Part shown: positions 7,448 to 50,388 of the stretch, in pieces | Layout of the letters: each line of letters begins with the position of its first letter | How positions within the stretch are numbered: position 1 is the first letter of the stretch | Source: Sphaerochaeta pleomorpha str. Grapes | Lineage (GTDB): Bacteria; Spirochaetota; Spirochaetia; Sphaerochaetales; Sphaerochaetaceae | Assembly: GCF_000236685.1 (NCBI RefSeq) | Contig: NC_016633.1 | Span: 2,542,001 to 2,606,000, forward strand | Direction of reading: 5' to 3' | Length of the DNA: 64,000 nt | Notes under the pieces: generated by a model | Told to the model about the DNA's origin: nothing | The model's database searches: none | Seen by the model: the letters and a program-made list of their open reading frames with translations, nothing else | Position numbers and translations under genes: made by a program

Positions 7448-7477
7448 AAATTGGGAAAATAGCATTTTTTTATTGTC

Positions 7478-7496: not shown

Positions 7497-7537
7497 CCTA
7501 AAGGATTATCCTTTGACCATACAGCAAAGGAGAATCT

Positions 7538-7717: not shown

Positions 7718-7721
7718 CACG

Positions 7722-7979: not shown

Positions 7980-8050
7980 TTCAGAGGGGATAAAATTGAT
8001 GTTTAGCAAAATTATTGAATATTTATGCAATGACACTCTTCCCCTCCTGT

Positions 8051-8155
8051 AAGGTTTCTGGGTAGGATGGAGAGACTTCCTAGAAAGTCTACATCTTACC
8101 CCCAGTCTGCACGTAATTTTTTTGTGCGGTTCTTTTTTTGTGCAGGCCGAAGGAG
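8051..8155 (+). promoter_or_regulatory. Structured 5' leader of the uracil/xanthine permease
   Basis: A long hairpin is formed by CTGG/GGTAGGATG (8058-8069) pairing with CATCTTACC/CCCAG (8092-8105). It encloses an inner perfect stem AGACTT (8073-8078)-cctaga-AAGTCT (8085-8090). Downstream, CTGCAC (8107-8112) can pair with either of two later GTGC segments, separated by T-rich tracts at 8117 and 8133. This looks like a regulatory leader with alternative folds. It does not match the purine riboswitch consensus as I know it. Confidence 0.4.
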
Positions 8156-8162
8156 CTATTCT

Positions 8163-10352: not shown

Positions 10353-10467
10353 GGGGTTATTCCCTTTATCAGGCTGGAGCGCTTATTGCAGAATACATCC
10401 CCCGCAGATCCATGGAATGGCTCATTTACTACACGGGCCTTCTGTTTGCAAACAGAGTGAATTCTGC

Positions 10468-10473
10468 TACGAT
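10468..10473 (+). promoter_or_regulatory. Extended -10-like box 6 nt before the RNase D-like gene
   Basis: TGCTACGAT carries the extended -10 TGn element and the hexamer TACGAT, six nt before ATG 10480, with TTGCAA (10446-10451) 16 nt upstream. No Shine-Dalgarno is seen. Confidence 0.4.
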
Positions 10474-10479
10474 GACAAC

Positions 10480-11367
10480 ATGTACACCTATTTGGTAATT
10501 GAATCGGATTTGCAACTTGATGAAATGGTTGCGCAATGGAAGGCACAGGGGACCAACGTCCTTGCCATGGACTTTGAAGGAGAATTCAACCTTCATATAT
10601 ATGGGGAACATCTTTGCCTTATCCAACTGTATGACGGTACTTCATTTTACCTCATTGACCCATTTAAAGTTCAGCCCTCTTCTCTGAAGGCGTTTCTACA
10701 AGATGCAGAGATAGAGAAAATTATGTTTGACTGTGCCAGTGACTCTGCCCTAGTCCGTAAGGAATTCGGGATCCTTATGCAAAACATCTACGATATCAGG
10801 GTTCCTGCCCTTGCCTTGGGCTATACGGGAAATCTTTCAGGGTTGGTGAGCCTCTACCTTGGAGAACAAGAAGAAAAGACAAACGGGAGCAAAAAGAAAA
10901 ACCAGATGACAAACTGGTTGGCAAGGCCTCTGAAGAATGATCAGGTCCAATATGCTTTATCGGATGTAGCCCATTTGTTTTCCCTCAAGGATATTCTCCA
11001 GGCGAAAATTGCCGAGAAAGGTCTTTCTGCCCAGGTCAATGCAACCATGCTGAATATTGCCAAGCCGAAAGGCCCGGACAAACCGGGGTGGACCAAATTT
11101 GCCTGTTGGAAATTTCTCAACCGGGAAGAGAAAGCTTATCTCAAGCATTTCTTCATTGCCCGAGATACGTTGGCGAAAAAATATAATGTCCCTGCAGTAA
11201 GAATCCTCGATAAACATGTCCTGGTAGATATGGCCAAGAACCTACCTGCCGACGCCAATTCCTTTCACTCTTTTTGTTATCGGTGCGGTATGCACTGTGA
11301 ACAGGAATTGGTCGAATTGCTTCTTGTGGGGAAATCTGCGGCCCTTGCAGAGATCAAAGGTGCCTGA
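10480..11367 (+). CDS. DEDD-type 3'-5' exonuclease, ribonuclease D-like
   Basis: The 295-residue protein has the three DEDDy exonuclease motifs: ExoI VLAMDFEGEFNLH (about residues 27-39), ExoII IMFDCASDSALV (about 82-93), and ExoIII VQYALSDVAHLF (about 157-168) with the Tyr and Asp in YxxxD. It should trim RNA or DNA 3' ends with two metal ions. The C-terminal part has a possible helical region in place of a clear HRDC domain. The longer in-frame start at 10417 adds residues unlike the family. Its last 14 nt overlap the convergent ketopantoate reductase gene. Confidence 0.82.
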   Translation: MYTYLVIESDLQLDEMVAQWKAQGTNVLAMDFEGEFNLHIYGEHLCLIQLYDGTSFYLIDPFKVQPSSLKAFLQDAEIEKIMFDCASDSALVRKEFGILMQNIYDIRVPALALGYTGNLSGLVSLYLGEQEEKTNGSKKKNQMTNWLARPLKNDQVQYALSDVAHLFSLKDILQAKIAEKGLSAQVNATMLNIAKPKGPDKPGWTKFACWKFLNREEKAYLKHFFIARDTLAKKYNVPAVRILDKHVLVDMAKNLPADANSFHSFCYRCGMHCEQELVELLLVGKSAALAEIKGA

Positions 11368-12268
11368 ACCGGGCTTGTTCGCAGCCTTCTACCAATAGGG
11401 AGAGGGTTTCACAGACAGGGGTAGGGATGTTGTGTCTCTGCCCTAGGTCTACTACCGTACCGCAGAACCATTGGTTTTCTGTTTTTCTCCCGGCTTCCAT
11501 ATCCTGGAACATCGAGGTTTTTCCTTCTGTTCCAAGGGAAGTGATCGTCTTGTAGTTAGCCTCGATCATTGCATCGGTAAGGATGATTCCCTCGGCCTTT
11601 GCTACCGCTTGTACTTCCTTGCTGGCTTTCCAGGCCAAGGTTCTCAGGCTTTCTGCCTTGAAATCGCCATAGGTGGCCAAACAGATTGAGGAAAGCGTAT
11701 TGAAAGCAGTGTTGAGCATGAATTTTTTCCAGAGTTCAAGACGTATATCCTCAGGTACCAGATACTTGATATGTGATTGTTCAAACAGATTGACAATCGA
11801 TCGGATACGTTCGCTTTTGCTGTTATCTTTTTCTCCAAAGACAATCTTGCCTTCCTCGGTAAAGTCTATGTGGTTCCTCTCGTGCCTTGAACTGAGACCT
11901 ACGGCAAAGGCATAGAGAACAGGTTTTGGCCCATAAGCATGTTCGAGCAAGGTTTCGCTTTCGGTACCATTCAAAAGACTCATGATAGCTGTGTCTTTTC
12001 CGACTGCGTTTTCAATAGCCTTGATGGCCTCTTTCAATTGGTGGTTCTTGGTAGCGATAATGACAAGGTCGGTCGGCTTTGCTTGGCCAGGGGTTACTAT
12101 CGGGAAGAAAACCTGCTCCCCGTTGAGAAAGAATCCTTCTTGCTCATAGCGCTTTTTCCGTTCACCCTCTGCAAGGACTTGTATCTGATCCATTCCCAAG
12201 CCCTGGGCAAGACGCCATCCGTATAAAGCTCCAACCGCTCCCGTTCCGATAAGTGTTACTGTTTTCAT
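11354..12268 (-). CDS. panE: 2-dehydropantoate 2-reductase
   Basis: The 304-residue enzyme reduces ketopantoate to pantoate with NADPH in the pantothenate/CoA pathway. The N-terminal Rossmann motif is TLIGTGAVGALYGWRLAQ, followed by DLVIIATKNHQLKEAI (Lys of the KxxQ/H motif) and SLLNGTESE, which corresponds to the family QNG segment. The conserved catalytic lysine region is ELWKKFMLNTAFNTLSSI (about residue 180). The start has AAGGTGAGGAC upstream. It begins 4 nt after the M20 peptidase stop, so they form an operon. Other members of this family reduce different 2-keto acids, so panE is likely but not proven. Confidence 0.85.
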   Translation of the reverse strand: MKTVTLIGTGAVGALYGWRLAQGLGMDQIQVLAEGERKKRYEQEGFFLNGEQVFFPIVTPGQAKPTDLVIIATKNHQLKEAIKAIENAVGKDTAIMSLLNGTESETLLEHAYGPKPVLYAFAVGLSSRHERNHIDFTEEGKIVFGEKDNSKSERIRSIVNLFEQSHIKYLVPEDIRLELWKKFMLNTAFNTLSSICLATYGDFKAESLRTLAWKASKEVQAVAKAEGIILTDAMIEANYKTITSLGTEGKTSMFQDMEAGRKTENQWFCGTVVDLGQRHNIPTPVCETLSLLVEGCEQARFRHL

Positions 12269-12272
12269 GTCC

Positions 12273-13343
12273 TCACCTTGTTGCTAATGCAAAGACAAGC
12301 TTTTCAAGCCTGTCTATCTGTTCAATGGAAATTTCCTCATGTACCGTATGGGCGTGCTCATAGCCACAACAACAGACAACGGTGGTCAGTCCCTTCGTGT
12401 TGAAGACATTGGCATCGCTGCCACCGAGAGTTGGCTGTTCATGGTAGGGTAGAGCCAGTGCTTCGCAGGTTTCCCTCAAATAGCGGAAAGCCGGACATGC
12501 GGTATCGAGTGTATAGCTGCCGTACATGTGGTCAACGGTGATTTCTACTGTACCTCCCCGTTTTCTGGCTGCTTCTTGTAGGCAGGAAACCATATGACCT
12601 GTCTGCTTTTCAAGCTTTTGCTTGTCTAAACTTCGTGATTCAAAAGTCAGAATAGCTTTGGGGTTGACTATATTGTTGTTCCCGGGGGCCAGAAACGAGC
12701 CTACGTTGGCCGTCGTTTCCTCGTCGATTTTAAGCAGTTGCATGGAAGCGATTGCCTCAGATCCCATTTGGATTGCACTGATGCCCGTCTCGGGGGAAAA
12801 ACCAGCATGGGAGGCTCTGCCGTGAAAAGTTGCCTCGATTCGGTCGTAGCCTGGAGCTGCGGTGATGCAGGTTCCTACGGGGCCGGAAGCATCAAAGGTG
12901 TAGCCATAGGAAACGGAAGCCAGTTTTTCCCTAGCAACCAGAGAAGCTCCCTGAAGCCCGATTTCTTCACTGGTAGTGAAGAGAATCATGAGGCTGTGGT
13001 GTTCGACCTTTTGGGTAATCAATCTCTCCAGGACAGAAAGAATGGCGGCAAGGGCAGCTTTATCGTCTGCTCCCAAAGCTGTTGTGTGGTCAGTTTTGAT
13101 TATTCCGTTTTCGATTACAACCTTTGCATTCTCGGCCGGGGGGACTGTATCCATGTGGGCATTGAACAGGATTGTCTCTTTCTGGCCTTTTACAAAGGCA
13201 AACAGGTTTCCTGCCTCGTCCTTTTCCGTTTCGATGCCAAGCCTCTGCAGACGCCTTGCGAGGTCTTCTCCGATTGTTTTCTCGTTTCTCGAGACAGAAT
13301 TGATAGCTACCAAATCAAGGAATGTGTTCACTGTAGAATTCAT
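12273..13343 (-). CDS. M20-family metallopeptidase (peptidase T-like)
   Basis: The 356-residue enzyme begins MNSTVNTFLDLVAINSVSRN. The zinc ligands are in FNAHMDTVPP (His, Asp), LGADDKAALAA (bridging Asp), TTSEEIGLQGA (catalytic Glu-Glu) and the C-terminal CGYEHAHTVHEE (His). The PepT/PepV-like dimerisation domain sits between about residues 170 and 280. It probably cleaves di- or tripeptides in the cytoplasm. An in-frame start at 13430 would overlap the divergent gene. ATG 13341-13343 has no Shine-Dalgarno but a -10-like TATACT 6 nt upstream. Confidence 0.85.
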   Translation of the reverse strand: MNSTVNTFLDLVAINSVSRNEKTIGEDLARRLQRLGIETEKDEAGNLFAFVKGQKETILFNAHMDTVPPAENAKVVIENGIIKTDHTTALGADDKAALAAILSVLERLITQKVEHHSLMILFTTSEEIGLQGASLVAREKLASVSYGYTFDASGPVGTCITAAPGYDRIEATFHGRASHAGFSPETGISAIQMGSEAIASMQLLKIDEETTANVGSFLAPGNNNIVNPKAILTFESRSLDKQKLEKQTGHMVSCLQEAARKRGGTVEITVDHMYGSYTLDTACPAFRYLRETCEALALPYHEQPTLGGSDANVFNTKGLTTVVCCCGYEHAHTVHEEISIEQIDRLEKLVFALATR

Positions 13344-27588: not shown

Positions 27589-28521
27589 TCAAGTGAGAAG
27601 CGTATACGTTATGGTGCGGGAGTATTGTTGGCAAGGATAGGTAGGCTCTTGGTTTATGACTTGTTGCGGTTCCAATGCAAAGGCACAGCTGGGGTGGGCA
27701 AAAGACCCGTTTGCCAATTGGGTTTCTTTTCCCAGGAACCCCCCGCTATAGAACCAGAGGTCAGGGGCATCGGATTCAACGACAAGTGAAGCGGTATTTC
27801 CAGATACCTCTGCCCTGTCTGTGCAGAATCCATGGTTTATACCTTTTGCATTTGCAATCTGTTCTTTGGGAGAGCAAAAAGCGAGGGAATCCAAAAAACT
27901 TCTAGGTTCAGTGAAATCAAAGGATGTCCCCTTCACCGGGGCTTTTTCCAGGGGAAGGAAATCGCCGTCATTCAGGAAATAGTGGGAAGCAGGAAAATGA
28001 AATACATGGGCATGTATGTCCGTGGAGAAATCTGAATTCAGGTTCCAATAGGCATGATTGGTAATATTGAAGAAAGTGGGTTTGTCCGTAAAAGCGCGAA
28101 GGGTAATGACAATTGAATGGTCACAGAGGGTGTACATACAGTGAACTCTCCTGTTCCCTGGGTATCCATCGGTACCGTCAGGAAGGAAAACCTGCATCTG
28201 AACTGAAGCTCCTGACTGATTTTCTATCTCCCAATGAAAATGGGAAAGAGAATGGGTCCCCCCATGCAGGTGATTGCCCTTTTCATTCTGGGTAAGTTGA
28301 TATACCTTTTTCCCAATCGTTATGGTTCCTTGTCTTGTACGACCGCACAAAGGGCCTATGGTGTACCCACTGTAAGACTTTGGGAGGTTGCCCTCAGAAA
28401 GTGGCAAGAGGCTCATCAATGGCGAAGCTAGGCCCTTTACGCTGAGTTGTTGCATTGAACACCCTTGTTTTGAGAGAACCAAGGATAGTTGCTTGTTTTT
28501 TATTTCAATTTGCTCCTGCAT
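27589..28521 (-). CDS. galM: Aldose 1-epimerase (mutarotase)
   Basis: The 310-residue enzyme interconverts alpha and beta anomers of aldoses. The substrate Arg is in YTIGPLCGRTRQGTITIG, the catalytic His in NHAYWNLNSDFSTD (about residue 155) and the catalytic Glu in SCAFALEPQQVINQEP near the C-terminus. HLHGGTHSLSHFHWEIENQS is the other conserved block. It diverges from the pentose ABC operon and shares the same 160-bp control region, so it presumably supplies the anomer used in sugar uptake and catabolism. Confidence 0.92.
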   Translation of the reverse strand: MQEQIEIKNKQLSLVLSKQGCSMQQLSVKGLASPLMSLLPLSEGNLPKSYSGYTIGPLCGRTRQGTITIGKKVYQLTQNEKGNHLHGGTHSLSHFHWEIENQSGASVQMQVFLPDGTDGYPGNRRVHCMYTLCDHSIVITLRAFTDKPTFFNITNHAYWNLNSDFSTDIHAHVFHFPASHYFLNDGDFLPLEKAPVKGTSFDFTEPRSFLDSLAFCSPKEQIANAKGINHGFCTDRAEVSGNTASLVVESDAPDLWFYSGGFLGKETQLANGSFAHPSCAFALEPQQVINQEPTYPCQQYSRTITYTLLT

Positions 28522-28574
28522 TAAAAACCACCTTTGATGGATATAGTATGACCTAAAATCTGATATAATTTAGA

Positions 28575-28637
28575 GCAATTTTTTATAATATTATCGCAAT
28601 ATTAGCTAATTCGTTATAAAAAAAGTCATGGTAGAGT
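28575..28637 (+). promoter_or_regulatory. AraC-type activator site and promoter of the pentose ABC operon
   Basis: GCAATTTTTTATAA (28575-28588) and a second GCAA (28596) start 21 bp apart, the spacing of AraC I1-I2 half-sites. The -10 box TAGAGT (28632-28637) starts 57 bp after the first half-site, so the second half-site overlaps the -35 region. An almost identical arrangement is at 33310-33372. Confidence 0.65.
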
Positions 28638-28681: not shown

Positions 28682-30187
28682 GTGGAATATTCTGTTGAAT
28701 TCCAGCATATAACAAAATACTTCCCAGGGGTCAGGGCTCTTGATGATGTAAGCTTCACCGCAAAAGGAGGGGAAGTTGTTGCCTTTCTGGGAGAGAATGG
28801 TGCTGGCAAATCGACTTTACTTAAAATCTTGAATGGTGATTACCAGCCAAGCGAAGGCAATTATCTGCTAAATGGCAACCATGTCCATTTCAGCAATCCT
28901 CACCAGGCAATAGAATCAGGGGTAAGTATCATCTACCAGGAACGGCAGATCCTGCCGGAATTGACAGTCACTGAAAATGTTTTTCTCGGAAACATGCCGG
29001 TCAACAGATTTGGTGTTATCGATATTGCAAAAGGGAATGCGCTGGCTGCAAAAATAATACATGATTTCGGCCTCCAGCAAATCAAACCTACTGATAAAGT
29101 CAAGGATTTATCAATTGCCTACCAGCAGATGATTGAAATCATGAAGGCCTACAGCAGGAAAAACCTTACCTGTATCTGTTTCGATGAACCAACCGCTTCA
29201 CTCAGTGATTCAGAGATAGATATTCTCTTCAATATCATCGAGAAATTGAAAAGTGAAGGGAAAGTAATCATTTACGTTTCCCATAGAATGAGCGAGATAA
29301 AGCGGATAGCTGACCGGGTTGTCATATTCAAAGACGGAAAATTCGTAACACTCCTGGATGCCAAGACCACAGACGAGAAAACAATGATAAAACTGATGGT
29401 TGGTCGGGATTTGCGTGACGGTTTTTCAAAACTTGCCCGCAATGAGAATGTCGGGGAAGTCTATTTTGAAGTGAAAGACATAACAAGTGAATATGTTGAA
29501 CCGGTTTCCTTTTCTCTTCGGCGAGGGGAAGTTTTAGGGTTTTCCGGACTTGTCGGGGCTGGCCGTACGGAAGTGATGAGGGCCATTATCGGTGCTGATA
29601 CCCTCAAAGGGGGGAAAATCATCCTGGATGGGAAAGAGATTCAAAATAGGAATCCCCATGAAGCGATCCTGAACGGGATAGTCTTGGTTCCAGAAGACAG
29701 GAAGTATCAGGGAATACTGGAAAATCTTAATGTCGCGGAGAACATCGCAATCGGTGCCATGGACCAGAATTCAAATAAACTAGGGGTTCTCGACAGGGAA
29801 GCAGAGGCTAAACTGGTTAGTGATGGGATAGAGGCCTTTAAAATAAAGACCCCGAATGCCAAAAAGATGATTTCTGAACTGTCTGGCGGAAACCAACAGA
29901 AATGTATCGTTGCAAGATGGATGGCTACAAAACCGAAAGTCTTGATCCTGGATGAACCTACCAAAGGTATCGATGTGGGAGCAAAGAACGAATTCTACAA
30001 TCTGATCGGTGAGTTTGCCCGCCAAGGCCTTGGGGTGATTTTGATTTCGAGTGAATTGCCCGAGGTCATTGGCTTGTCAGATAGAATCATAGTAATGAAA
30101 AACAAAAGAATCAGTGGCGTTGTCGAGAGAAAAGATGCAACTGAAAGCAGTTTGCTGGCCTTGGCTATGACTGAGAAAATTCATTGA
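28682..30187 (+). CDS. Sugar ABC transporter ATP-binding protein (AraG/RbsA-type, two domains)
   Basis: The 501-residue protein starts at GTG 28682, eight nt after GAGGAG. It has two ABC domains. The first has Walker A FLGENGAGKSTLLKILNG, a signature VKDLSIAYQQMIEIMKA region, and Walker B CICFDEPTASLSD. The second has a degenerate Walker A GFSGLVGAGRTEVMRAI, signature ISELSGGNQQKCIVARW and Walker B VLILDEPTKGIDVG. This tandem layout is typical of ribose, arabinose and xylose importers. It energises the permease encoded 22 nt downstream. Confidence 0.93.
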   Translation: MEYSVEFQHITKYFPGVRALDDVSFTAKGGEVVAFLGENGAGKSTLLKILNGDYQPSEGNYLLNGNHVHFSNPHQAIESGVSIIYQERQILPELTVTENVFLGNMPVNRFGVIDIAKGNALAAKIIHDFGLQQIKPTDKVKDLSIAYQQMIEIMKAYSRKNLTCICFDEPTASLSDSEIDILFNIIEKLKSEGKVIIYVSHRMSEIKRIADRVVIFKDGKFVTLLDAKTTDEKTMIKLMVGRDLRDGFSKLARNENVGEVYFEVKDITSEYVEPVSFSLRRGEVLGFSGLVGAGRTEVMRAIIGADTLKGGKIILDGKEIQNRNPHEAILNGIVLVPEDRKYQGILENLNVAENIAIGAMDQNSNKLGVLDREAEAKLVSDGIEAFKIKTPNAKKMISELSGGNQQKCIVARWMATKPKVLILDEPTKGIDVGAKNEFYNLIGEFARQGLGVILISSELPEVIGLSDRIIVMKNKRISGVVERKDATESSLLALAMTEKIH

Positions 30188-30209
30188 TCCAGAGGGGAGA
30201 TGTGTATAC

Positions 30210-31205
30210 ATGCTGAATAAGAAGTTTAAATTCGAGAAAATGGATGGGGGAAAAATTATCCTCATCATTGCAATCGTGGGTGTGACGGTTCTTTTTACGA
30301 TTCTGAATCCGAATTATCTGTCTTCGACAAATATGGTTAATATATTGGTTGCAGCTTCTCTTGCAGGGTTGATAGCGATTGGTGAAACCTATTTGATCAT
30401 TGCAGCACAGGTAGACCTGTCACCTGGTTCCGTGGTTGCTTTTTCCGGGGTTTTCGCGGCGTTGCTGGTATCACACGGGGTGAACTTCTATATTGTGGTT
30501 CCCCTTACCTTGCTTTCCGGTGCCCTGATCGGGCTGTTCAATGCTTTCATGGTCAATGAAATTAATTTGCAGCCCTTTATCGCAACCTTGGTTTCCCAGT
30601 CCATTATCAGGGGGGCCGCCTATATTATCTGCGGTGGAAAACCGGTGGCAATCAATAATCCTTCTTATATCGCATTGGGGAAAATCCGTTTCCTTGGCAT
30701 TCCCGCCTCCGTCTGGATCATGCTTGTGATGATGATAATCTTTGGATTCATACTTGCCAGGACCCGTTTCGGCAGAAGCATCTATGCAATAGGTGGAAAT
30801 AAATCTGCCGCACGGCTTGCTGGGCTCAATCCAAAACGGATTGTCATCTGGATGTTCTTGATCATGGGTGTCCTCAGTGCAGTTGGTGGCATTGTATTCT
30901 CTGCAAGAATGCATTCAGGGCAACCTGCGGCAAATATCAACTTGGAATTCGATGCCATTACCGGAGCTGTCCTGGGCGGTATCTCCTTTGCCGGTGGTGT
31001 CGGGGATATGGGAGGAGCTTTCTTGGGCATCCTGCTCATCCAGGCTTTCAATACTGGCCTCACCATGGTAAACGTTCCGTCCTTCTGGCAATACGTAGCA
31101 CGTGGCGCTTTGCTTCTGATTGCGCTAAGCAGTGACTTTATCAGAAAACAGAACAGGGAGAAGGCGCTTCTTGAGGCAAGTAAAAAAGCCGCCGCGAATG
31201 CATAG
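30210..31205 (+). CDS. Sugar ABC transporter permease (AraH/RbsC-type)
   Basis: The 331-residue protein has about nine TM helices. It shows LAGLIAIGETYLIIAAQVDL near residue 55 and LFNAFMVNEINLQPFIATLV, the conserved BPD_transp_2 region. RFGRSIYAIGGNKSAARLAG is the cytoplasmic loop that docks the ATPase, followed by GAVLGGISFAGGVGDMGGAF. It forms the transmembrane channel for the pentose importer. A Shine-Dalgarno GAGGGGAG precedes the start. The tail is rich in Lys and Ala. Confidence 0.92.
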   Translation: MLNKKFKFEKMDGGKIILIIAIVGVTVLFTILNPNYLSSTNMVNILVAASLAGLIAIGETYLIIAAQVDLSPGSVVAFSGVFAALLVSHGVNFYIVVPLTLLSGALIGLFNAFMVNEINLQPFIATLVSQSIIRGAAYIICGGKPVAINNPSYIALGKIRFLGIPASVWIMLVMMIIFGFILARTRFGRSIYAIGGNKSAARLAGLNPKRIVIWMFLIMGVLSAVGGIVFSARMHSGQPAANINLEFDAITGAVLGGISFAGGVGDMGGAFLGILLIQAFNTGLTMVNVPSFWQYVARGALLLIALSSDFIRKQNREKALLEASKKAAANA

Positions 31206-31311
31206 CAGCCTGATTGGAATAATCAGCTCAGGGTGTTGCCAAGGCTGTTTTTCCTGGCATTGAACTATTGAAAACGATGGAGCTTGGCTCCATAAAAATA
31301 AGGAGTGGACC

Positions 31312-32307
31312 ATGAAGAGAAAAATGGGTGTGCTGTTGCTATTAGTGCTTTGTAGTGTTGGCATGTTGTTTGCCAATGGATCGAAGGAAGCTACTGCTAA
31401 ATCAGGAAAACCGGTTATCTATGGCATCTATAAAGCTGGGGATCAGACTTGGTTTATAGACGAAGGTGCTTCAGCAAAGGTTGCCGCAGAGGCTGCCGGG
31501 TATGACTTTATCTATGTTGATGCAAAAATGAGTCCTGAAGAATATCTGCGGGCTCTTGATAATGCAATTGCAAACAAGGCTGCAGGTATCGTAACCTGTA
31601 CCCCTGACCAGACCATGAGCAGTGCTATCATGGATAAGATGAACGACGCAGGAATTCCTGTTGTTGCCGCTGATGATGCCCTCGAAACAGATGGCAAGAA
31701 GATTGCACCCTGGGTAGGTATCAATGCCTATGTTATCGGTGAAGCAAACGGTGCATGGCTTGCAAACTATGCAAAGGAAAACAATCTTGTTACCAATCCT
31801 GAGGTAGGTCTTCTGCTCATGACCATGGATACCGTATCCTCTTGCGTCCCAAGGGCAAAAGGCGAATATGCAAAGTTCGTTGCAGCCAGTCCCGAGTTCC
31901 CCAAAGACCGTATCTTCTATGCCGACTACGATGGCACCACGGATAAGGGAAACCAAGTTTCCTCAGCAGTGTTTACTGCACACCCCGAGATTAAGACTTG
32001 GCTGGTTACCGGAGCAAATGAGGAAGGTACCATTGGAGCAGTCCGTGCTCTTGAAAGTGCAGGACTGGACAAGACAAGCTGCGTAGTCGGTCTTGGTGCC
32101 TATATGGCCAAAGACGAATTCAAGGCACCAGGTGGATCAGCGATGAAGGCAGCCGCATACTTCTCATCCGAAAGTGTAGGGGCAGGGTCTGTAAAGGTAC
32201 TTCTTGATGTAATCAATGGTAAAACCGTTCCCATGGAAACTGCAGTCGATGCAGTAGTTGTCACTCCCCAGAATTATCGGGAAGTAATGGGCAAGTATGC
32301 CGACTAA
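31312..32307 (+). CDS. Periplasmic sugar-binding protein, AraF-like (L-arabinose-type)
   Basis: The 331-residue protein starts at ATG 31312 after AAGGAGTG. The signal peptide is MKRKMGVLLLLVLCSVGMLF with cleavage near NGSKEA. The mature part follows E. coli AraF: QTWFIDEGASAKVAAEAAGY, NAIANKAAGIVTCTPDQTMS, HPEIKTWLVTGANEEGTIGA and VDAVVVTPQNYREVM. The two-lobed fold binds an aldopentose or galactose. The similarity to AraF was judged by eye and is the main reason for suggesting arabinose. The gene ends the ABC operon before a strong terminator. Confidence 0.9.
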   Translation: MKRKMGVLLLLVLCSVGMLFANGSKEATAKSGKPVIYGIYKAGDQTWFIDEGASAKVAAEAAGYDFIYVDAKMSPEEYLRALDNAIANKAAGIVTCTPDQTMSSAIMDKMNDAGIPVVAADDALETDGKKIAPWVGINAYVIGEANGAWLANYAKENNLVTNPEVGLLLMTMDTVSSCVPRAKGEYAKFVAASPEFPKDRIFYADYDGTTDKGNQVSSAVFTAHPEIKTWLVTGANEEGTIGAVRALESAGLDKTSCVVGLGAYMAKDEFKAPGGSAMKAAAYFSSESVGAGSVKVLLDVINGKTVPMETAVDAVVVTPQNYREVMGKYAD

Positions 32308-32368: not shown

Positions 32369-33208
32369 TTAGATAGTTTCAGTTTCCCTGTATTGTAGCG
32401 GGGTGAACCCAGTCAACCTCTTGAACGTATTGGAAAACGAACTCTCATTGGAGAAACCGCAAGAATAGACAATATCTTTCAGGGAAGCCTTGGTGGTTTT
32501 TAAATAGAATTTAGCGGCGTTTACCCTTGTGTTGATGATGTACTCATGGGGAGTATAGCCAATTTTAGTCTTGAAAGTCCTGATAAAGTAATAGGGGGAA
32601 AGACAAGCTTTCCTGGCGAGGGTGTCAACGTCTATTTTCTCAAATAGGTGCTCATTGATATATCCGAGGATATCGTCCAGAGATCCCTTTTCCCCAGGTT
32701 CTTCTTCATTTGGAATCAAAAATTCACTCAACAGGTTTATGATTAGCTTATTGGTGAAGGCTTCGTTTGCCCCTCCGTTTCTCTGGAACATGCCGATCAG
32801 TTTTTCGAGATTAAGCACGAAAGGGTTAGGGTTGAGTAATTGAATTACGCAAGAAGATGTTTCTTTGATTGTATGGAACCAATCGTTAGCCTGTGCACTG
32901 TTGAAATGGCACCAGAGAATCTTCCAGCCTGTGTCTGTCCCATATTCATGGGGGTTGTAGCAATCGACAAGGGCTAGGGACCCTGTCTGCAGGGGTTCCT
33001 TTTTTCCATCCCTGAGCAGATACCCAGAACCTTTTACTACGAGTATCAAAAGGTAGCTGTGGTAGCTGGTTCGTTTCACCTTGTAGTGAAGGTCGCAATC
33101 ATAATTCCCGCAACACAGTATATGGAAGAAAATTGTCTGGGCAGTCTTACTTGCCGTGTGGAAGTAGACCTCTGATGCAGGTAGCACCCCTTTTTCCTGG
33201 ACTTTCAA
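32369..33208 (-). CDS. AraC-family regulator with cupin sensor domain
   Basis: The 279-residue protein starts at TTG 33206-33208, eight nt after GGGAGG. Residues 30-150 form an AraC-type cupin (SYLLRDGKKEPLQTGSLALV, HEYGTDTGWKILWCHFNSAQ). Residues 180-279 hold two helix-turn-helix motifs: DVDTLARKACLSPYYFIRTF and KTTKASLKDIVYSCGFSNES followed by SFSNTFKRLTGFTPLQYRET. It diverges from the DUF5107 gene. The paired half-sites at 28575 and 33310 are its likely targets. Confidence 0.9.
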   Translation of the reverse strand: MKVQEKGVLPASEVYFHTASKTAQTIFFHILCCGNYDCDLHYKVKRTSYHSYLLILVVKGSGYLLRDGKKEPLQTGSLALVDCYNPHEYGTDTGWKILWCHFNSAQANDWFHTIKETSSCVIQLLNPNPFVLNLEKLIGMFQRNGGANEAFTNKLIINLLSEFLIPNEEEPGEKGSLDDILGYINEHLFEKIDVDTLARKACLSPYYFIRTFKTKIGYTPHEYIINTRVNAAKFYLKTTKASLKDIVYSCGFSNESSFSNTFKRLTGFTPLQYRETETI

Positions 33209-33309
33209 TGCAGTTTCCTCCCTTTCGGGTTTTTGATGTTTGGTTCGTTGGTTTCTGACAGTATTGCATCATGCAGGGGGGAAAAGCAATAAATTGAATT
33301 TGTGATATG

Positions 33310-33372
33310 GCAATTTTTTATAACAACAGAGCAAATATAGTTAATTACACAGCCATTTTGCCATGATAGATT
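33310..33372 (+). promoter_or_regulatory. AraC-type activator site and promoter of the DUF5107-TPR gene
   Basis: GCAATTTTTTATAA (33310-33323) and a second GCAA (33331) are 21 bp apart, and the -10 box TAGATT starts at 33367, exactly 57 bp after the first half-site. Also ATGGCAA (33307-33313) and TTGCCAT (33358-33364) form an outer dyad. Orientation and spacing equal those of the ABC operon promoter. Confidence 0.65.
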
Positions 33373-33399: not shown

Positions 33400-36300
33400 A
33401 TGGAAAAAGCAAGAGTGTGGCAAGAGACTGTTACAATTCCGACCTATGGAATTGGCAAACCAAACAAGAATCCTATGTTTCTGGAAAAAAGAGTTTACCA
33501 GGGATCTAGCGGAAAGGTGTATCCATACCCAGTCATTGATTCCCTGGTTGATGAGAAGAAAGATATGCCCTATATCGGCTTGTACCTTGAAAATGCATAT
33601 ATCAAAGTCCTTGTCCTGCCTGAAATAGGTGGGAAGATACACCGTGCGGTCGATAAGACGAACGGGTATGATTTTGTCTACCATAACGAGGTTATAAAAC
33701 CCGCTTTGGTAGGGCTCCTTGGCCCTTGGGTATCTGGTGGTATTGAATTCAACTGGCCTCAGCACCACAGGCCGACAACCTTCATGCATACTGATTTCAT
33801 GTACGGGAATAAGGATGGGGATGCCTTTATAAGAATCTTTGACCATGACAGGATACATGGAACAAATGTCGTTACGACATTCACGTTGCATGAGGATACA
33901 AGCTACATCGAAATCGGGGCAAGTCTTTTCAATCCTACCAGCCAGGCACAGACGTTTCTCTGGTGGGCCAATCCGGCGGTAGCAGTAAATGACAACACCC
34001 AGTCAATTTTCCCTCCCGATGTCAATGCGGTTTTTGATCACGGGAAGAGAGCTGTCTCGAAATTCCCCATAGCGACTGGGGAATACTATAAGCATGATTA
34101 CAGTATGGGCGTCGATATTTCCCGGTATAAGAACCTTCCAGTCCCTACTTCCTATATGGCTTATAAAAGCAAATATGATTTTGTCGGGGGGTACGACTAT
34201 GCCCAGCAGGCAGGAATCCTCCATGTGGCCGACCATCATATTTCCCCTGGCAAAAAACAATGGACCTGGGGTTGCGGGGATTTTGGGCAGGCCTGGGACC
34301 GAAACCTTACCGATGAAAACGGTCCGTATATTGAGTTGATGACTGGTGTCTTTACCGATAACCAACCAGACTTTTCCTGGCTCCAGAGTCATGAGGAAAA
34401 GCATTTTACGCAGTATTTCATGCCATATAAACAGCTTGGGGCAGTAAAGAATGCCAGCATAGATGTGTTGCTGAATTGCGAGGTTGCTAACGGAATTGCC
34501 GTTGTGTCGGTCTATACTACAAGCAAGAGAGAAGTAAGGATAACACTTTCGGGTGACAAGACCTACCTTGATGAAATCGCAGAAGTATCACCCTGTGAAG
34601 TGTTTTCCAGGGAAATTAATACTATAGCCTGCCCTGACACGGCTTTGGTCCTTTCGGTCTTCGATCAAGGGGGCATACTTCTTTTGCGGTATCAGAAGGA
34701 AGAGGAGACTATCAAACCGATGCCTGAACCGGCTAGCGCTGCAAAGGATCCCAAGGATATTTTGACCTGTGAGGAACTGTATCTAACAGCCCAGCATATC
34801 GAGCAATACCGCCACGCTACCTATCTGCCTGAACCCTATTATCTGGAAGGTTTGAAAAGGGATGAGGGGGATATTCGCCTGAACAATTCCTATGGTGTGC
34901 TACTTATGCGCAAAGGGCTTTTCAAAGAGGCTGAAAGTCATTTTGCCAAAGCGTTGGAGAGGCTGACCAGTATGCATCCCAATCCCTACGATAGCGAAGC
35001 CTATACGAATCTCGGATTTGTCTTGGAATACCAAGGATGTGATGAGGCTGCGTTCGATGCCTTCTATAAGGCTACCTGGGCACAGTCGCAGGCAGGGGTT
35101 GCAAATTACAAACTTGCCTCTCTGGCCTGCAAAGCTGGCAGATATGTACAGGCACTCGATTTTGTAGAGCGTGCCCTGCAATATAACAGCAGAAATATCA
35201 GTGCACTGGATTTGAAGGTCCTGCTCTTGTTGATGCTCAACAGAAAAGAAGAAGGGTTTGCCTGTGCAAGACAAAATATAGAACTGGATCCCTTCGATTA
35301 TATTGCTGCATTCCTGCTTGCCAGAGAAGGGCAAAGCCTTTCTTTCGATTTTTGCCAACGGATGGGCGAAAGGGAAGAGACCTATCTGGAGGGTGGTTTC
35401 CTGCTTTCTTCTTTCGGACAATACCAGATGGCCCTCGATTTTTGCAATCTCTATCAAGGGACTCACGTACTGGTTGAGTACCATAAGGCATTCTATGCAG
35501 GCAAACTTGGCCTTGGGGACAATAAATATCTGCAAAAGGCTAAATGTGCAGACCTAGCCTGTAGGTTTGCAAATACGCTTTTTGACCAGATTGTCTTGGA
35601 GTATGCGATAGGGAGGGATTCCAAAGACTGGGTGGCCCTCTATCTGCTCGGGAATCTTTTCTATGACAAGAGAAGGTACGATGAGGCCCTCAGCTGTTGG
35701 CTCAGGAGCAGAGACTGCAATACTTTGTTTCCGACTGTGCATAGGAATCTGGCAATTGCTTTCTTTAATAAGCGTAATGATAAAAAGGCTGCCCAGACAG
35801 AGCTTGAACAGGCTTTCCGTCTCGACCCCACAGACGCCCGGGTGTTTCTGGAACTTGACCAGTTATACCGGAAACTTGGATTTTCCAATGAACAGCGTCT
35901 GCAAAACTATGAAAGATATTCAGATCTGTTTATTGTGCGTGATGACCTGAAGACAGAGTATGTTACCCTGCTCAATCTTACCGGCGAATATCACAGAGCC
36001 TATGACTTCTTGAAGGCGAACACCTTCCACCCTTGGGAAGGTGGGGAAGGTAGGGTATCCTCACAATATGTCTTTGCTTTGCGGGAGCTTGCAAGAGGTT
36101 GTATGGGAACTGGCGACTATGCAGGGGCCGTCAAGTTGCTCAATGCTTCCTTGTCCTATCCCCATAATCTTGGAGAGGGGAAGCTTGAGGGTAGAAAAGA
36201 CAATGATATCCATTACTATCTAGGGCTTTGCTATGAAGAACTAGGGGATAAGGATGCCTCTATACTGCATTTCAAACAAGCGAGCGTGGGTTCCTTGGAG

Positions 36301-36657
36301 CCTGCAGGCATGATGTTCTACAATGACCAGCCTGCAGATATGATTCTCTACCAAGCCCTTGCCTGCAGGAAACTGGGAGATGACCATGGGGCCCAGGTCA
36401 GGTTGAACAAATTGGTTGACTACGGCGAGCAGCATTTCTTTGATGCGGTCAAGATAGATTATTTTGCTGTCTCCCTCCCAGACCTGCAACTTTTCAATGA
36501 GGATCTGGACCAGAAGAACAAGATTCATTGCAATTACCTTATGGCACTTGGCTGCTATGGAAAAGGTGAGAAGGAGAAGGCAACGCATCTGCTAGAAGAG
36601 ATTCTCGCTGTTGATTGCACCCATATGGGGGCAAGACTGTTGCTGGGAATGAAATAA
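33400..36657 (+). CDS. DUF5107 domain fused to TPR repeats
   Basis: The 1085-residue cytoplasmic protein starts at ATG 33400, nine nt after AAGGAG. Residues about 5-345 are DUF5107, a mutarotase-like beta-sandwich, with VLVLPEIGGKIHRAVDKTNG, GPWVSGGIEFNWPQHHRPTT, FLWWANPAVAVNDNTQSIFP and QWTWGCGDFGQAWDRNLTDE. Residues about 490-1085 contain many TPR-like helical repeats, e.g. NSYGVLLMRKGLFKEAESHF and YYLGLCYEELGDKDASILHF. There is no signal peptide. It could process or sense a glycoside or sugar anomer and assemble partners through its TPRs. Its promoter is built like the ABC operon's, so both belong to one regulon. The biochemical function is not established. Confidence 0.85.
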   Translation: MEKARVWQETVTIPTYGIGKPNKNPMFLEKRVYQGSSGKVYPYPVIDSLVDEKKDMPYIGLYLENAYIKVLVLPEIGGKIHRAVDKTNGYDFVYHNEVIKPALVGLLGPWVSGGIEFNWPQHHRPTTFMHTDFMYGNKDGDAFIRIFDHDRIHGTNVVTTFTLHEDTSYIEIGASLFNPTSQAQTFLWWANPAVAVNDNTQSIFPPDVNAVFDHGKRAVSKFPIATGEYYKHDYSMGVDISRYKNLPVPTSYMAYKSKYDFVGGYDYAQQAGILHVADHHISPGKKQWTWGCGDFGQAWDRNLTDENGPYIELMTGVFTDNQPDFSWLQSHEEKHFTQYFMPYKQLGAVKNASIDVLLNCEVANGIAVVSVYTTSKREVRITLSGDKTYLDEIAEVSPCEVFSREINTIACPDTALVLSVFDQGGILLLRYQKEEETIKPMPEPASAAKDPKDILTCEELYLTAQHIEQYRHATYLPEPYYLEGLKRDEGDIRLNNSYGVLLMRKGLFKEAESHFAKALERLTSMHPNPYDSEAYTNLGFVLEYQGCDEAAFDAFYKATWAQSQAGVANYKLASLACKAGRYVQALDFVERALQYNSRNISALDLKVLLLLMLNRKEEGFACARQNIELDPFDYIAAFLLAREGQSLSFDFCQRMGEREETYLEGGFLLSSFGQYQMALDFCNLYQGTHVLVEYHKAFYAGKLGLGDNKYLQKAKCADLACRFANTLFDQIVLEYAIGRDSKDWVALYLLGNLFYDKRRYDEALSCWLRSRDCNTLFPTVHRNLAIAFFNKRNDKKAAQTELEQAFRLDPTDARVFLELDQLYRKLGFSNEQRLQNYERYSDLFIVRDDLKTEYVTLLNLTGEYHRAYDFLKANTFHPWEGGEGRVSSQYVFALRELARGCMGTGDYAGAVKLLNASLSYPHNLGEGKLEGRKDNDIHYYLGLCYEELGDKDASILHFKQASVGSLEPAGMMFYNDQPADMILYQALACRKLGDDHGAQVRLNKLVDYGEQHFFDAVKIDYFAVSLPDLQLFNEDLDQKNKIHCNYLMALGCYGKGEKEKATHLLEEILAVDCTHMGARLLLGMK

Positions 36658-42596: not shown

Positions 42597-42648
42597 ATTT
42601 TCAATAGAGTAAACCCTTTAATAATTTTCAGTTTTTATGGAGGGGAAG

Positions 42649-43671
42649 TTGTCAGTCTCAATCAAAGAAGTAGCCAAACTAGCGGGTGTGTCAGTTGCCA
42701 CGGTATCCAATGTTCTTAACAATACCAAGAATGTTCGACCTGAAACAAAAGCAAAAGTCGAGACAGCAGTAAGTCAGCTGAATTACCAGATCAACCCCTT
42801 GGCTAGAAATTTCAGGAAAGGTCAGAGCAAGGTTATTGGTTTTGTGGTTTCGGACCTCTCAAACTACTTTTTCCAAAATGTTGCAATCGGCCTTGAGCGG
42901 AGTCTGTCAGAGTACGGTTATCATGTTGCACTCATGGATTGCAAAGAATCCAAGGCCCTTGAGATTGAAAATGTCAGGAACCTTCTAGCTTCTTCTGTCG
43001 ACGGACTGGTTATCGCAACAACCGGAGAGGACTGTTGTTATCTGCAGCTTATTTTAGAGAACCATGATGTTCCTGTTGTCTTTGTTGACCGTAAACCCTT
43101 TGGCTTTACCAGTGACATGGTACTCTCCACAAATAATGAAGGGGCATACCTCGGAATCAAATACCTGATTAGCAAAGGTCATGAGAAAATCGGGTTTATT
43201 ACCAGTCGTAATGACTCGACAATGAAAGAACGTATTGAAGGCTATCGCCAAGCTTACCAGGAGGCTGGGCTGAAAGTGAATGAGAATTACATCATGACCG
43301 GTAACAATGATATATCGATATCGCAGAATCAACTTCTCCATGGTATTGCCTACACCCAAGCAAAACAATTGATTGAAGCAGGTGAGGTTACCGCTCTGTT
43401 CACGGGAAACAACCTTTCATCGATTGGCGCCTATAATTATCTTCGGGAAGTGAATATCCCGGTGCCTGATAAGATGGCCTTCATGACCTTTGATGATTCC
43501 TTCTGGCTTTCGATGACCACGCCAAGCATTTCGGCGGTAAGACAGGATCCTGACATGATAGGTTCTGTTTCGGGACAGTTAATATATGAACGTATATCAA
43601 ATAAGGTTTCTGAACAACCAAACAGGATTGTGCGTATCCCTACACGTTTGGTCTTACGTTATAGCGTGTAA
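42649..43671 (+). CDS. LacI-family transcriptional regulator of the polyol cluster
   Basis: The start is chosen at TTG 42649, which follows GGAGGGG (42639-42645); the ATG at 42637 sits inside that site. The 340-residue product begins with the LacI HTH and hinge, SIKEVAKLAGVSVATVSNVL (residues 4-23), and a periplasmic-binding-like sensor, e.g. VIGFVVSDLSNYFFQNVAIG and AFMTFDDSFWLSMTTPSISA. The typical hinge QLNYQINPLARNFRKGQS is present. It probably represses the downstream ABC, kinase and dehydrogenase genes until a polyol or derived sugar binds. Confidence 0.92.
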   Translation: MSVSIKEVAKLAGVSVATVSNVLNNTKNVRPETKAKVETAVSQLNYQINPLARNFRKGQSKVIGFVVSDLSNYFFQNVAIGLERSLSEYGYHVALMDCKESKALEIENVRNLLASSVDGLVIATTGEDCCYLQLILENHDVPVVFVDRKPFGFTSDMVLSTNNEGAYLGIKYLISKGHEKIGFITSRNDSTMKERIEGYRQAYQEAGLKVNENYIMTGNNDISISQNQLLHGIAYTQAKQLIEAGEVTALFTGNNLSSIGAYNYLREVNIPVPDKMAFMTFDDSFWLSMTTPSISAVRQDPDMIGSVSGQLIYERISNKVSEQPNRIVRIPTRLVLRYSV

Positions 43672-43737
43672 GAAGAGTGTACAGTCGACTAACATTTTAC
43701 CTAACTATTTTTCTTTAATTTTCAAAAGGAGGAAATT

Positions 43738-45117
43738 ATGAAAAAGTTTGTGAAATTGGTGACAGTGCTTTCTCTGGTATTGTTGATTGGAACATCAGCA
43801 ATTTTCGCCCAAGGGGGAACAGAAGGAACGAAGGCAGCTTCTGGTCCTGTTACCGTTAATGTTGCTTTGGCTAATAACCCCTTATCTCAGGCACTGGCAA
43901 AGTATGCCCAGCAGTCATACAAAGCTGATGGTGTAAACGTCAATATCTCGGTTCTTCCCGAGAATGATTTGCGTCAGAAATTGACGACAGGAGCTGCAAC
44001 AAAGGACAGTACCTACGATATCATTTATATCGGACCGTACGAGGCTCAGACTTGGGCAAAGAACGGATGGTTAGAGAATCTGAAACCATATTTTGACAAG
44101 ATGACCCCAGAGCAGAAACAGTGGTACGATTACGATGATCTTATCAAAGGCATGCTGGATTCTGTTTCCCTTGATGGTATTCCCTATGGTATCCCGTTCT
44201 ATGGAGAGACTTCCTTTCTTATGTACAACAAGGATTTGTTTGCAAAAGCGGGACTAACAATGCCTGAAGAACCGACTTGGGACCAGGTATATGCTTTTGC
44301 CAAGAAAATCAATGATCCTGCCAATGGGATTGTAGGAATGACCATGCGTGGAGCTCCTGGTTGGGGAATGAGCGGAGCACCGTTCACTACGATGATCAAT
44401 GCATTTGGAGCCCAGTTTTATGATATGAATTGGAATGCTACCATTGATACCCCCGCGATGCGTAATGCGTGGATGATGTATAAGAAAATTCTTACCGAAG
44501 CTGGCCAGAAAGACATCCTTAGTTACACCTACAATGAGTGTATAGCCCTCATGTCGAGTGGTAAGTGCGGTATGTATTATGATGCCACATCTCTTGCTCC
44601 TCCTTTGGAAGCTTCTGATAGTGCTGTAAGAGGTCATATCGGGTATGTGATGGCACCCCATGATCAGCTGAAGAAGAACACTGCCTGGTTGTGGAACTGG
44701 ACCATGTGCATAAACCCGAATATTACCGCTGAAAGAAAACAGGCAGCCTTCGATTTTATACTGTGGGCAACCAGCAAGGATTATGTAGCTTTGACACTTA
44801 AAGAGGATCCTTCCTGTGGAACGACTCCCAGTGCAAACCGTTACAGCACGTACAAATTGAGTGCCTATGCAAAGGCTCCGTATGCTGCAATCACATTGAA
44901 GACGCTCCAGAATCTTGATTTTACAAAACCGACACTCAATCCAGCTCCTTATGTTGGTTTACAGTACATGGCTATTCCTGAATTTGCAGATATCGGTACA
45001 GCCATGACTGAATATCTGGCTGACTATGTGGTTAACAAAACCAGCCTTGATGAGGCTATCAGAAAAACTCAGGCTGTATTCGAACAGGCTGCAAAGGATG
45101 GAAATTATAAAAAATGA
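43738..45117 (+). CDS. Polyol ABC transporter substrate-binding protein (SmoE/MtlE-like)
   Basis: The 459-residue protein starts after AAGGAGG and has a signal peptide (MKKFVKLVTVLSLVLLIGTS, cleavage after AIFA). The binding-protein family 1 fold shows IPYGIPFYGETSFLMYNKDL (about residues 147-166), LTMPEEPTWDQVYAFAKKIN and GKCGMYYDATSLAPPLEA. The pattern resembles sorbitol/mannitol binding proteins (SmoE, MtlE), judged by eye. With the dehydrogenases downstream, a pentitol or hexitol ligand is inferred. Confidence 0.9.
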   Translation: MKKFVKLVTVLSLVLLIGTSAIFAQGGTEGTKAASGPVTVNVALANNPLSQALAKYAQQSYKADGVNVNISVLPENDLRQKLTTGAATKDSTYDIIYIGPYEAQTWAKNGWLENLKPYFDKMTPEQKQWYDYDDLIKGMLDSVSLDGIPYGIPFYGETSFLMYNKDLFAKAGLTMPEEPTWDQVYAFAKKINDPANGIVGMTMRGAPGWGMSGAPFTTMINAFGAQFYDMNWNATIDTPAMRNAWMMYKKILTEAGQKDILSYTYNECIALMSSGKCGMYYDATSLAPPLEASDSAVRGHIGYVMAPHDQLKKNTAWLWNWTMCINPNITAERKQAAFDFILWATSKDYVALTLKEDPSCGTTPSANRYSTYKLSAYAKAPYAAITLKTLQNLDFTKPTLNPAPYVGLQYMAIPEFADIGTAMTEYLADYVVNKTSLDEAIRKTQAVFEQAAKDGNYKK

Positions 45118-45154
45118 TAGGTTTTAACCTTTGATAAAGTTCAATCAGTTTTCT

Positions 45155-45178
45155 GTCCGGTGGGTTTCTCCACCGGAC
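45155..45178 (+). terminator. Intercistronic hairpin between binding protein and permease
   Basis: GTCCGGTGG (45155-45163) and CCACCGGAC (45170-45178) form a perfect 9-bp stem in the 128-nt gap, followed by a weak T-containing tail. It can stop 3' decay or cause partial termination, giving more binding protein than permease. Confidence 0.6.
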
Positions 45179-45245
45179 GTATTTGTTCTTTCTTGTCGAG
45201 CTAGGGGCTCTATCGAGGGGGATCTAATCAATCATAGGGATGCAT

Positions 45246-46178
45246 ATGGAAAAGCAAAATTCGATCCAGGCGAAACAGAAAAAAATCCTAGCGACCAATT
45301 TATTCACAAAAAAACGGTCTCGAGAACAAACGGATTACCGTTATTTAATTCCTGGTATAGTGGTTGTTGCTGTGATGACCCAAGTTCCCTTTCTCATCAC
45401 CATAATTTTTTCGTTTATTAAATGGAATCTCTCCCGCCCTGATATTCCGAAAGTGTTTGCAGGATTTTCGAATTACTGGTTTTTTATAAAAAGTAGCGAG
45501 TTTTGGCAAATACTGTGGCAGACCATTGAGATTACCGGGGTTTCATTGGGGCTCTGCACGGTTTTTGGCTTTTTGATGGCTCTTTTACTTGATAATGAGG
45601 TTCCTTTTATCAACATTGCAAGGACCCTGATACTTGGTCCGTTTTTTGTAATGTCAACTGCCAGTGGCGTTATCTGGAAGACTACAATTTTCAATACAAT
45701 TTTCGGTTGGTATGGAATTCTTGCTCAGAAACTCAATTTTACACCGGTTGACTGGATAAGCTACCATCCTGTCGGTGTAATCATTTTATTATTCGTCTGG
45801 CAATGGATGCCCTTTTTTGTCTTGATTCTTTTGGCTGGACTTCAGGGGATTTCGAAAGATTTGATAGATTGTATGCACCTGGATGGGGTCAACTGGCTTC
45901 AAGGGACCTTTTTGATTAAGTTGCCTTTGATTTCGAATCAGGTCCGGGTGGCTATCATGCTTGGGTTAGTCTTCCTGATAAAGGAATTTGGCTTAATCTT
46001 AGTCACTACTAACGGAGGCCCAGGGAAAAGCAGTTATACCTTGCCTTTCTACGTTTACTACCAGACAGTGTATTCAAATCAGGTTGGCCGGGCAGGTGCT
46101 CTTGCGGTGATTACTGTTGCCCTAACTTTGGTTTTGATCAGGATCCTGTACAAACAGATTAAAAAAAGGAGTGTCTGA
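45246..46178 (+). CDS. Sugar/polyol ABC transporter permease 1
   Basis: The 310-residue protein starts at ATG 45246 after AGGGATGC; ATG 45240 is the alternative. It has six TM helices after a basic leader. The EAA loop is around GLQGISKDLIDCMHLDGVNW (about residues 200-219), which contacts the ATPase. It belongs to the MalF-like group and pairs with the next gene, which it overlaps by one base. No ATPase gene is in this cluster, so a shared MsmK-type ATPase elsewhere probably drives it. Confidence 0.9.
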   Translation: MEKQNSIQAKQKKILATNLFTKKRSREQTDYRYLIPGIVVVAVMTQVPFLITIIFSFIKWNLSRPDIPKVFAGFSNYWFFIKSSEFWQILWQTIEITGVSLGLCTVFGFLMALLLDNEVPFINIARTLILGPFFVMSTASGVIWKTTIFNTIFGWYGILAQKLNFTPVDWISYHPVGVIILLFVWQWMPFFVLILLAGLQGISKDLIDCMHLDGVNWLQGTFLIKLPLISNQVRVAIMLGLVFLIKEFGLILVTTNGGPGKSSYTLPFYVYYQTVYSNQVGRAGALAVITVALTLVLIRILYKQIKKRSV

Positions 46179-47050
46179 TGATGAATGAAGCAAGGACTAT
46201 TACACAGATTCAGCGCTCCATGCGCCTTAAGAAAATTATCAAGAAAATATTCTTGGCCCTCATAATCTATAGTATCGCGCTTACGTACTTTTTTCCGATT
46301 CTCTACATGTTTCTCTCTGGTTTTAAGACAGAACAACAGGCAGTAAATCCTTCACTCAGGTTCAGCCCGACGCTTGAAACCTATAGGAAAGTGTTGTCAG
46401 ACCCAACGATGATCCAATATCTGAAGAACTCAGTGTTTCAAGTATTTCTTGGTACCGGAATCAGTCTTCTGTTGGGGATTCCGGTGGCTTTTGCCTTGGT
46501 GTTTGGCAAACTGAAGACAAAGGATAGCGCAGGAAAAATCTACCTCTGGTTTATTACCACCATTTTATTGCCACCTGTAGCTGTGTTGATTCCCCTGTTC
46601 ATCAGTTACCAGAGAATCAACCTGAAAAACAATCCACTGGGCTTGCTGCTTGCTTATGTTGGATTCAATATCCCTTTGGCTGTTTGGTTGGTTCATTCGT
46701 TTTTCAGTGATTTGCCAAAAGATATTTTCGAGGCGGCCCGCATCGACGGATGTACCCGCTGGCAACAGATGGTTTTGATGGCGATTCCTTTGGCTCGTAC
46801 CGGTATCATCAGTGCGGGACTGATTATCGCCGTACAGATTTGGAATGAATTCTTTCTTTCCTTCAATCTGACAGGGAATCCCTCAGCTACGTTACCTGTA
46901 TATATGTCCAGGTTCCGTGAACAGCAAGGATTATTTGTTGCCCAGCTGTCCGCGTCCTCGACCATTTCCATTCTTCCTGCGTTGATTCTCGGTTGGATGA
47001 GTCAGAAGGCTCTGGTAAAAGGTTTGACGATGGGAGCTGTAAAGGAATGA
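46178..47050 (+). CDS. Sugar/polyol ABC transporter permease 2
   Basis: The 290-residue protein starts at ATG 46178, seven nt after AAGGAG. It has six TM helices and the MalG-type EAA motif FEAARIDGCTRWQQMVLMAI (about residues 184-203). The region QIWNEFFLSFNLTGNPSATL and a C-terminal SQKALVKGLTMGAVKE are typical. Its stop overlaps the kinase start (ATGA), so translation is coupled. Confidence 0.9.
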   Translation: MMNEARTITQIQRSMRLKKIIKKIFLALIIYSIALTYFFPILYMFLSGFKTEQQAVNPSLRFSPTLETYRKVLSDPTMIQYLKNSVFQVFLGTGISLLLGIPVAFALVFGKLKTKDSAGKIYLWFITTILLPPVAVLIPLFISYQRINLKNNPLGLLLAYVGFNIPLAVWLVHSFFSDLPKDIFEAARIDGCTRWQQMVLMAIPLARTGIISAGLIIAVQIWNEFFLSFNLTGNPSATLPVYMSRFREQQGLFVAQLSASSTISILPALILGWMSQKALVKGLTMGAVKE

Positions 47051-49538: not shown

Positions 49539-49587
49539 TTTGTAACATAATACAGGGTATACTAATGAAGGGAATTGGAGGTTCGTT

Positions 49588-50376: not shown

Positions 50377-50388
50377 GGTAGTTTTTAA

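Follow-up and report, generated by a model that had tools for sequence, protein, structure and literature searches.

The closest described system to the locus analyzed here is AraC/araBAD of E. coli, in which the half-sites I1 and I2 are direct repeats that partly overlap the −35 element (review, PMC7408454). The corresponding L-arabinose ABC transporter is AraFGH. E. coli AraC acts at araI1-I2 as an activator and also represses, through looping. A literature search found no paper on an arabinose regulon in Sphaerochaeta and no paper on the function of the DUF5107 domain, which in the literature searched is named by one paper, a single time. The window, meaning the whole 64,000-nucleotide stretch of DNA analyzed, has 45% G+C and belongs to a host genome consisting of a single contig of 3,590,853 bases. 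Two of its promoters, P1 and P2, are here judged highly likely to be the co-regulated pair of one small sugar regulon having the AraC-family protein encoded at 32369–33208 as activator. The regulon plan itself is very probably of a known, textbook kind, that of a small arabinose-like regulon.

Architecture of the two promoters

The sequence GCAATTTTTTATAA occurs at 28575–28588 and at 33310–33323, with no other copy on either strand of the whole window. A second GCAA follows 21 bp after the first at both promoters (28596 and 33331), and the −10 boxes, TAGAGT at 28632 and TAGATT at 33367, each lie 57 bp from the first half-site. Direct reading thus confirms the shared arrangement described in the original prediction, and its equation of the 21-bp spacing with that of araI1-I2 is borne out against MG1655, the −10 offset being within 1 bp of that of araBAD. 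Two features absent from that account are an extended −10 element (TGN) at both promoters, with TGG before TAGAGT and TGA before TAGATT, and a second conserved box 12–14 bp inside each half-site of P1 and P2.

All promoter elements are on the forward strand. At P1, the distal, I1-like half-site AGCAATTTTTTATAATA spans 28574–28590 and is kept upstream of araG in G002, G024, G035, G215, and G294; the proximal, I2-like half-site CGCAATATTAGCTAATT (28595–28611) is its direct repeat 21 bp downstream and reaches the −35 position (28609–28614). The extended −10, TGG-TAGAGT, occupies 28629–28637, and transcription is predicted to start near 28644. P1 also has a TATAAT, located within its distal half-site and served by a weak −35. 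At P2, the distal half-site GGCAATTTTTTATAACA (33309–33325), likewise I1-like, is retained ahead of the DUF5107 genes of 15 genomes; the I2-like proximal half-site AGCAAATATAGTTAATT (33330–33346) overlaps the −35 position (33344–33349), the extended −10, TGA-TAGATT, is at 33364–33372, and the predicted start is near 33379. Some AraC-independent activity of P2 is possible because its −35 matches 4 of 6 positions.

Genes downstream of and adjoining the promoters

P1 precedes a forward-strand operon in the order ATPase, permease, binding protein. The sugar ABC transporter ATPase (28682–30187; Pfam and NCBIfam) is AraG-like and the permease (30210–31205) AraH-like: AraG and AraH are their best-scoring models, with scores below the equivalog cut-offs (597 of 689 bits and 258 of 378 bits, respectively). 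The closest solved relatives of the periplasmic sugar-binding protein (31312–32307) are L-arabinose-binding proteins (PDB 4kzk and 6abp best, E = 2e-24), and ribose-binding proteins match too. P2 precedes the forward-strand gene of a 1,085-residue protein with a DUF5107 domain (Pfam, 1.6e-50) and TPRs, at 33400–36657, for which the ATG at 33400 after AAAGGAG fits better as start than the GTG at 33391. Between the P1 operon and this gene, on the opposite strand and divergent from the DUF5107 gene, lies the gene of the AraC-family regulator (32369–33208, TTG start), the candidate activator of both promoters. The regulator combines a cupin-like sensor, an N-terminal AraC-like sugar-binding domain (PF02311, 1.1e-12), with a C-terminal pair of HTH motifs (HTH_18, PF12833, 3.5e-22; HTH_AraC, PF00165, 8.8e-21); the NCBIfam AraC equivalog is its best-scoring model, at 90.7 bits against a cut-off of 208. 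Homology of these products supports the earlier designation of the region as a pentose locus.

An aldose 1-epimerase gene (27589–28521, reverse strand) diverges from P1; G002 and the genus of G035 likewise have such a gene beside the regulon, oriented divergently to one of the two promoters. A separate sugar locus at 42637–51492 of the window comprises a LacI regulator, a CUT1 ABC transporter, an FGGY kinase, two zinc alcohol dehydrogenases, and an SDR; no AraC-type site was found at that locus.

Specificity of the site

By chance, the 25-mer would turn up 0.14 times per window when up to three mismatches are allowed; the window contains two exact copies and one copy with three mismatches. The genome search proposed in the original prediction, GCAA-N17-GCAA with the same −10 offset, proved too unspecific by itself, because with any TAnnnT it gives 14 genome matches against 4 in the control, the spacers of the 14 being mostly unlike the motif; GCAA-N17-GCAA without a −10 box, occurring 12 times in the window, is too common. 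Once the extended element is included (GCAA-N17-GCAA with TGNTAnnnT at the same distance), the only two matches in the 3.59-Mb genome are P1 and P2, and the reversed-pattern control gives none.

One further match in the window, at 8006–8068, shows TAGGAT at an offset of exactly 57 bp, immediately ahead of a Xan_ur_permease gene (8067–9452). It was not counted, as it is without TGN, has a weak second half-site with a poor second box, and places its −10 over the listed ATG of the permease; it is probably due to chance. Another AT-rich GCAA-N17-GCAA, with TATGCT at +57, lies elsewhere in the host genome (L127, C1:307922–307984).

Conservation of the site with the AraC orthologue

The genome collection includes at least 25 other members of the host genus. 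An AraC match at 1e-42 or better is present in 11 relatives, besides the window genome; G028, whose AraC is 33% identical, was set aside as having no DUF5107 gene. All 15 examined genomes in which the DUF5107 gene and the AraC orthologue are both present carry an AraC-type site ahead of the former; these represent at least five genera, and, as the compared genomes are related, the counts are not independent events. The 15 are the window genome; G001, G002, G008 (whose contig ends just inside the DUF5107 gene), G010, G012, G017, G019, G024, and G040, all with GCAA half-sites; G035, with GCAG variants; L003, a contig named Treponema sp. UBA1798 with the same site layout; and G215 and G294 (exact) and G244 (one mismatch), which were added by a wider search. 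In the window genome and ten relatives, direct repeats spaced 21 bp apart and a −10 at 56–58 bp precede the DUF5107 gene. Conversely, the site was found, even with one mismatch allowed, in none of the 10 genomes that have a DUF5107 gene but for which the thresholds used gave no AraC orthologue (G026, G038, G047, G286, G147, G110, G074, G109, G153, and G154). No site was found at DUF5107 in G134, whose AraC match is weak and unlinked (1.8e-44), nor in G260, G082, and G273, which were compared for the site only.

The full pattern, GCAR-N17-GCAR with a −10 at 56–58, is present in 9 of 9 promoters whose genome or contig encodes the AraC orthologue and in 0 of 7 unlinked DUF5107 promoters, and its chance occurrence is at most 0.003 per promoter in dinucleotide shuffles. 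A spacing of 21 bp separates the GCAR pair in nine cases, whereas any other spacing occurs at most twice. The sequence flanking the conserved sites has diverged widely. Given this conservation, it is very improbable that P1 and P2 owe their likeness to chance, or to duplication of a T-rich promoter element devoid of regulatory meaning: although the shared 14-mer is T-rich and the 14 genome matches to the looser pattern show that it is not rare, the site persists at 14 distinct promoters while their surroundings diverge, and it is absent from DUF5107 promoters in genomes without the AraC orthologue.

The same co-occurrence bears on the choice of regulator. The genome encodes many AraC-like proteins (33 first-look candidates), and the half-sites of AraC-family proteins can resemble each other, so another member of the family might bind these sites while the adjacent gene is a bystander. 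This, too, appears improbable, since the presence of the site follows this particular AraC orthologue genome by genome, including genomes that lack the transporter, and does so even in G035, G244, G294, and G215, whose DUF5107 promoter has the site without araC as its neighbor. The attribution of the sites to the AraC protein at 32369, made in the original prediction from the spacing, thus gains comparative support from the 15 of 15 genomes with and 0 of 10 without the orthologue, and from the araG-like gene, where a site is found in 6 of 6 cases; overall, that interpretation is supported at the level of sequence comparison.

Elsewhere in the host genome (L055, C1:1755500–1774500), two divergent DUF5107-TPR paralogues that are 30–37% identical stand side by side at 5519–8674 and 10030–13236 of that segment, and neither has an AraC-type site. 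The same side-by-side arrangement is seen in G018 (L056).

Motif and proposed mechanism

The half-site consensus is AGCAATTTTTnnnAAT, about 17 bp long and directly repeated 21 bp apart. Across 14 aligned promoters, no variation is seen in GCA (positions 0–2), AA (12–13), A (33), or T (35); 13 or 14 of them retain GCA at 21–23, and all have a −10 offset of 56–58. Each half-site may therefore be viewed as two contact boxes separated by about one helical turn, as two AraC-type HTH motifs would read them. The proximal half-site overlaps the −35 hexamer position by about 3 bp, and the −35 itself matches the hexamer at 0–3 of 6 positions at most promoters and at 4 positions at two. The constant position of the proximal half-site at −35, the extended −10, and the mostly poor −35 together give the layout of a class II activator.

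Binding, activation, inducer, and start sites are predicted here from features that are directly observed, namely the site, its spacing, its uniqueness in the genome, its conservation, and its co-occurrence with the araC gene. In the proposed mechanism, the sugar-bound AraC-family protein would occupy both half-sites at P1 and at P2 and would contact RNA polymerase at each promoter, giving class II activation in the manner of E. coli AraC at araI1-I2. Uptake through the AraG/AraH-like operon (28682–32307) and production of the DUF5107-TPR protein (33400–36657) would then be switched on together, the inducer probably being L-arabinose or a close sugar.

The looping repression exerted by E. coli AraC, together with weak half-site-like words at window position 33286 and, in G002, close to araC, allows a different view, in which repression is the protein's main role at these sites or it activates only one promoter. 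Such a role is considered unlikely, as the class II layout described above argues against it and no upstream half-site is conserved across genomes. A search across genomes for a conserved distant operator like araO2, which serves in repression looping, found only weak extra half-sites in single genomes.

Transporter operon in relatives and the inducing sugar

Among the 60 relatives, every genome with an orthologue of the binding protein has the AraC orthologue as well (G000, G002, G008, G024, and G035), and an araG-like gene about 70% identical is present in G215 and G294. All six genomes that have the regulator and whose contigs include the operon start (G000, G002, G024, G035, G294, and, with one mismatch, G215) carry a second site, located ahead of the araG-like gene. 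A more distant araG-like gene (53%) occurs in G286, which has neither the AraC orthologue nor the site. Six genomes, G001, G010, G012, G017, G019, and G040, lack the transporter but have the regulator and DUF5107; the site at DUF5107 is the only one found in them. The finding that the site is present at DUF5107 even where the transporter is missing indicates that the DUF5107 gene is the constant target of the regulator.

In the sister genus (G035, G294, and G215), the DUF5107 promoter heads a run of genes ahead of the transporter genes. The order in L048 (10379–18501, G035), L110, and L111 is DUF5107, IclR, SGL lactonase, SDR, IlvD/EDD dehydratase, RraA-like, and araG, followed by (araH and the binding protein). 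A set of gluconolactonase-like, SDR, IlvD/EDD-type dehydratase, and RraA-like proteins fits a non-phosphorylative aldose pathway, e.g., for L-arabinose or a related sugar, and by its gene content the run is likely such a sugar pathway under the same two promoters. In G019 (L042, 9941–17849), L046, and L047, the AraC-DUF5107 pair without transporter adjoins a second AraC-like gene and a CUT1-type ABC transporter, with a GH2-like enzyme of 927 residues and a zinc alcohol dehydrogenase also nearby; this neighborhood is possibly a glycan locus.

The pocket of the L-arabinose-binding protein is taken here to consist of K10, E14, W16, F17, C64, D89, D90, M204, N205, and N232. In the alignment with the binding protein of the window, K10, W16, F17, C64, D89, D90, and N205 are kept, E14 is replaced by Q and M204 by A, and N232 falls in a gap. 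H93 of E. coli AraC, a pocket residue, is not conserved in the aligned regulator. The binding-protein alignment thus supports an arabinose-like sugar without making it certain, and the lack of H93 in the regulator and of an N232 equivalent in the binding protein weighs against naming one exact sugar. There is nearly an even chance that the regulon is real and its inducer is a sugar other than L-arabinose, such as D-galactose, D-fucose, D-xylose, ribose, or an arabinoside. Consistent with this are the matches of the binding protein to ribose-binding proteins and its lack of some pocket residues of arabinose-binding protein, the fit of the sister-genus enzymes to several aldose-to-acid routes, and the retention of the DUF5107 target in six genomes without the transporter; against it, proteins of L-arabinose systems are the best matches for ATPase, permease, binding protein, and regulator alike.

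Implications for DUF5107

What is new here, and the novelty is modest, is the link between AraC and DUF5107 and the emergence of this almost unstudied domain as the most constant target. It is tentatively suggested, with somewhat less than an even chance of being correct, that the DUF5107-TPR gene is the core target of the AraC regulator and that DUF5107 thus contributes functionally when the cell handles the inducing sugar. If so, the protein might, for example, bind or process the sugar inside the cell, which would constitute the first functional assignment for the family. A comparison of DUF5107 profiles with those of the neighboring aldose epimerases, the profiles being shallow, detected no relation, and the AlphaFold model built for the domain from two sequences had too low a confidence for use (pLDDT 35). 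The tie to an arabinose-like sugar regulator offers a direct handle on the role of DUF5107, and, for a free-living spirochaete lineage, the locus represents an AraC regulon that is clean and open to testing.

Comparison with known systems

As in E. coli AraC/araBAD, the half-sites are direct repeats 21 bp apart with the proximal one at −35, so that, far from the enterobacteria, the araI1-I2 layout persists with almost base-pair precision; read from MG1655, the araBAD −10 lies 56 bp from the GC of araI1, compared with 57 bp at P1 and P2. The regulator has the same domain order as E. coli AraC, to which it is 24% identical, and an AraFGH-like transporter is common to both systems. The half-site word differs, however, being TAGC... 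in E. coli and AGCAATTTTT..AA here; in contrast to araBAD, most promoters here have an extended −10 and a conserved araO2-like site was not found, and the targets include the DUF5107 gene rather than araBAD. The transporter resembles AraFGH by its best NCBIfam models, AraG and AraH, and by the closest PDB relatives of its binding protein, whereas it differs in scores below the equivalog cut-offs, in a distant binding protein with some pocket positions changed, and in the gene order ATPase-permease-binding protein. The N-terminal domain of the P2 gene product (residues 43–346) matches both DUF5107 (PF17128) of TPR proteins and PDB 5cd6, but here the gene is tied to a sugar regulator.
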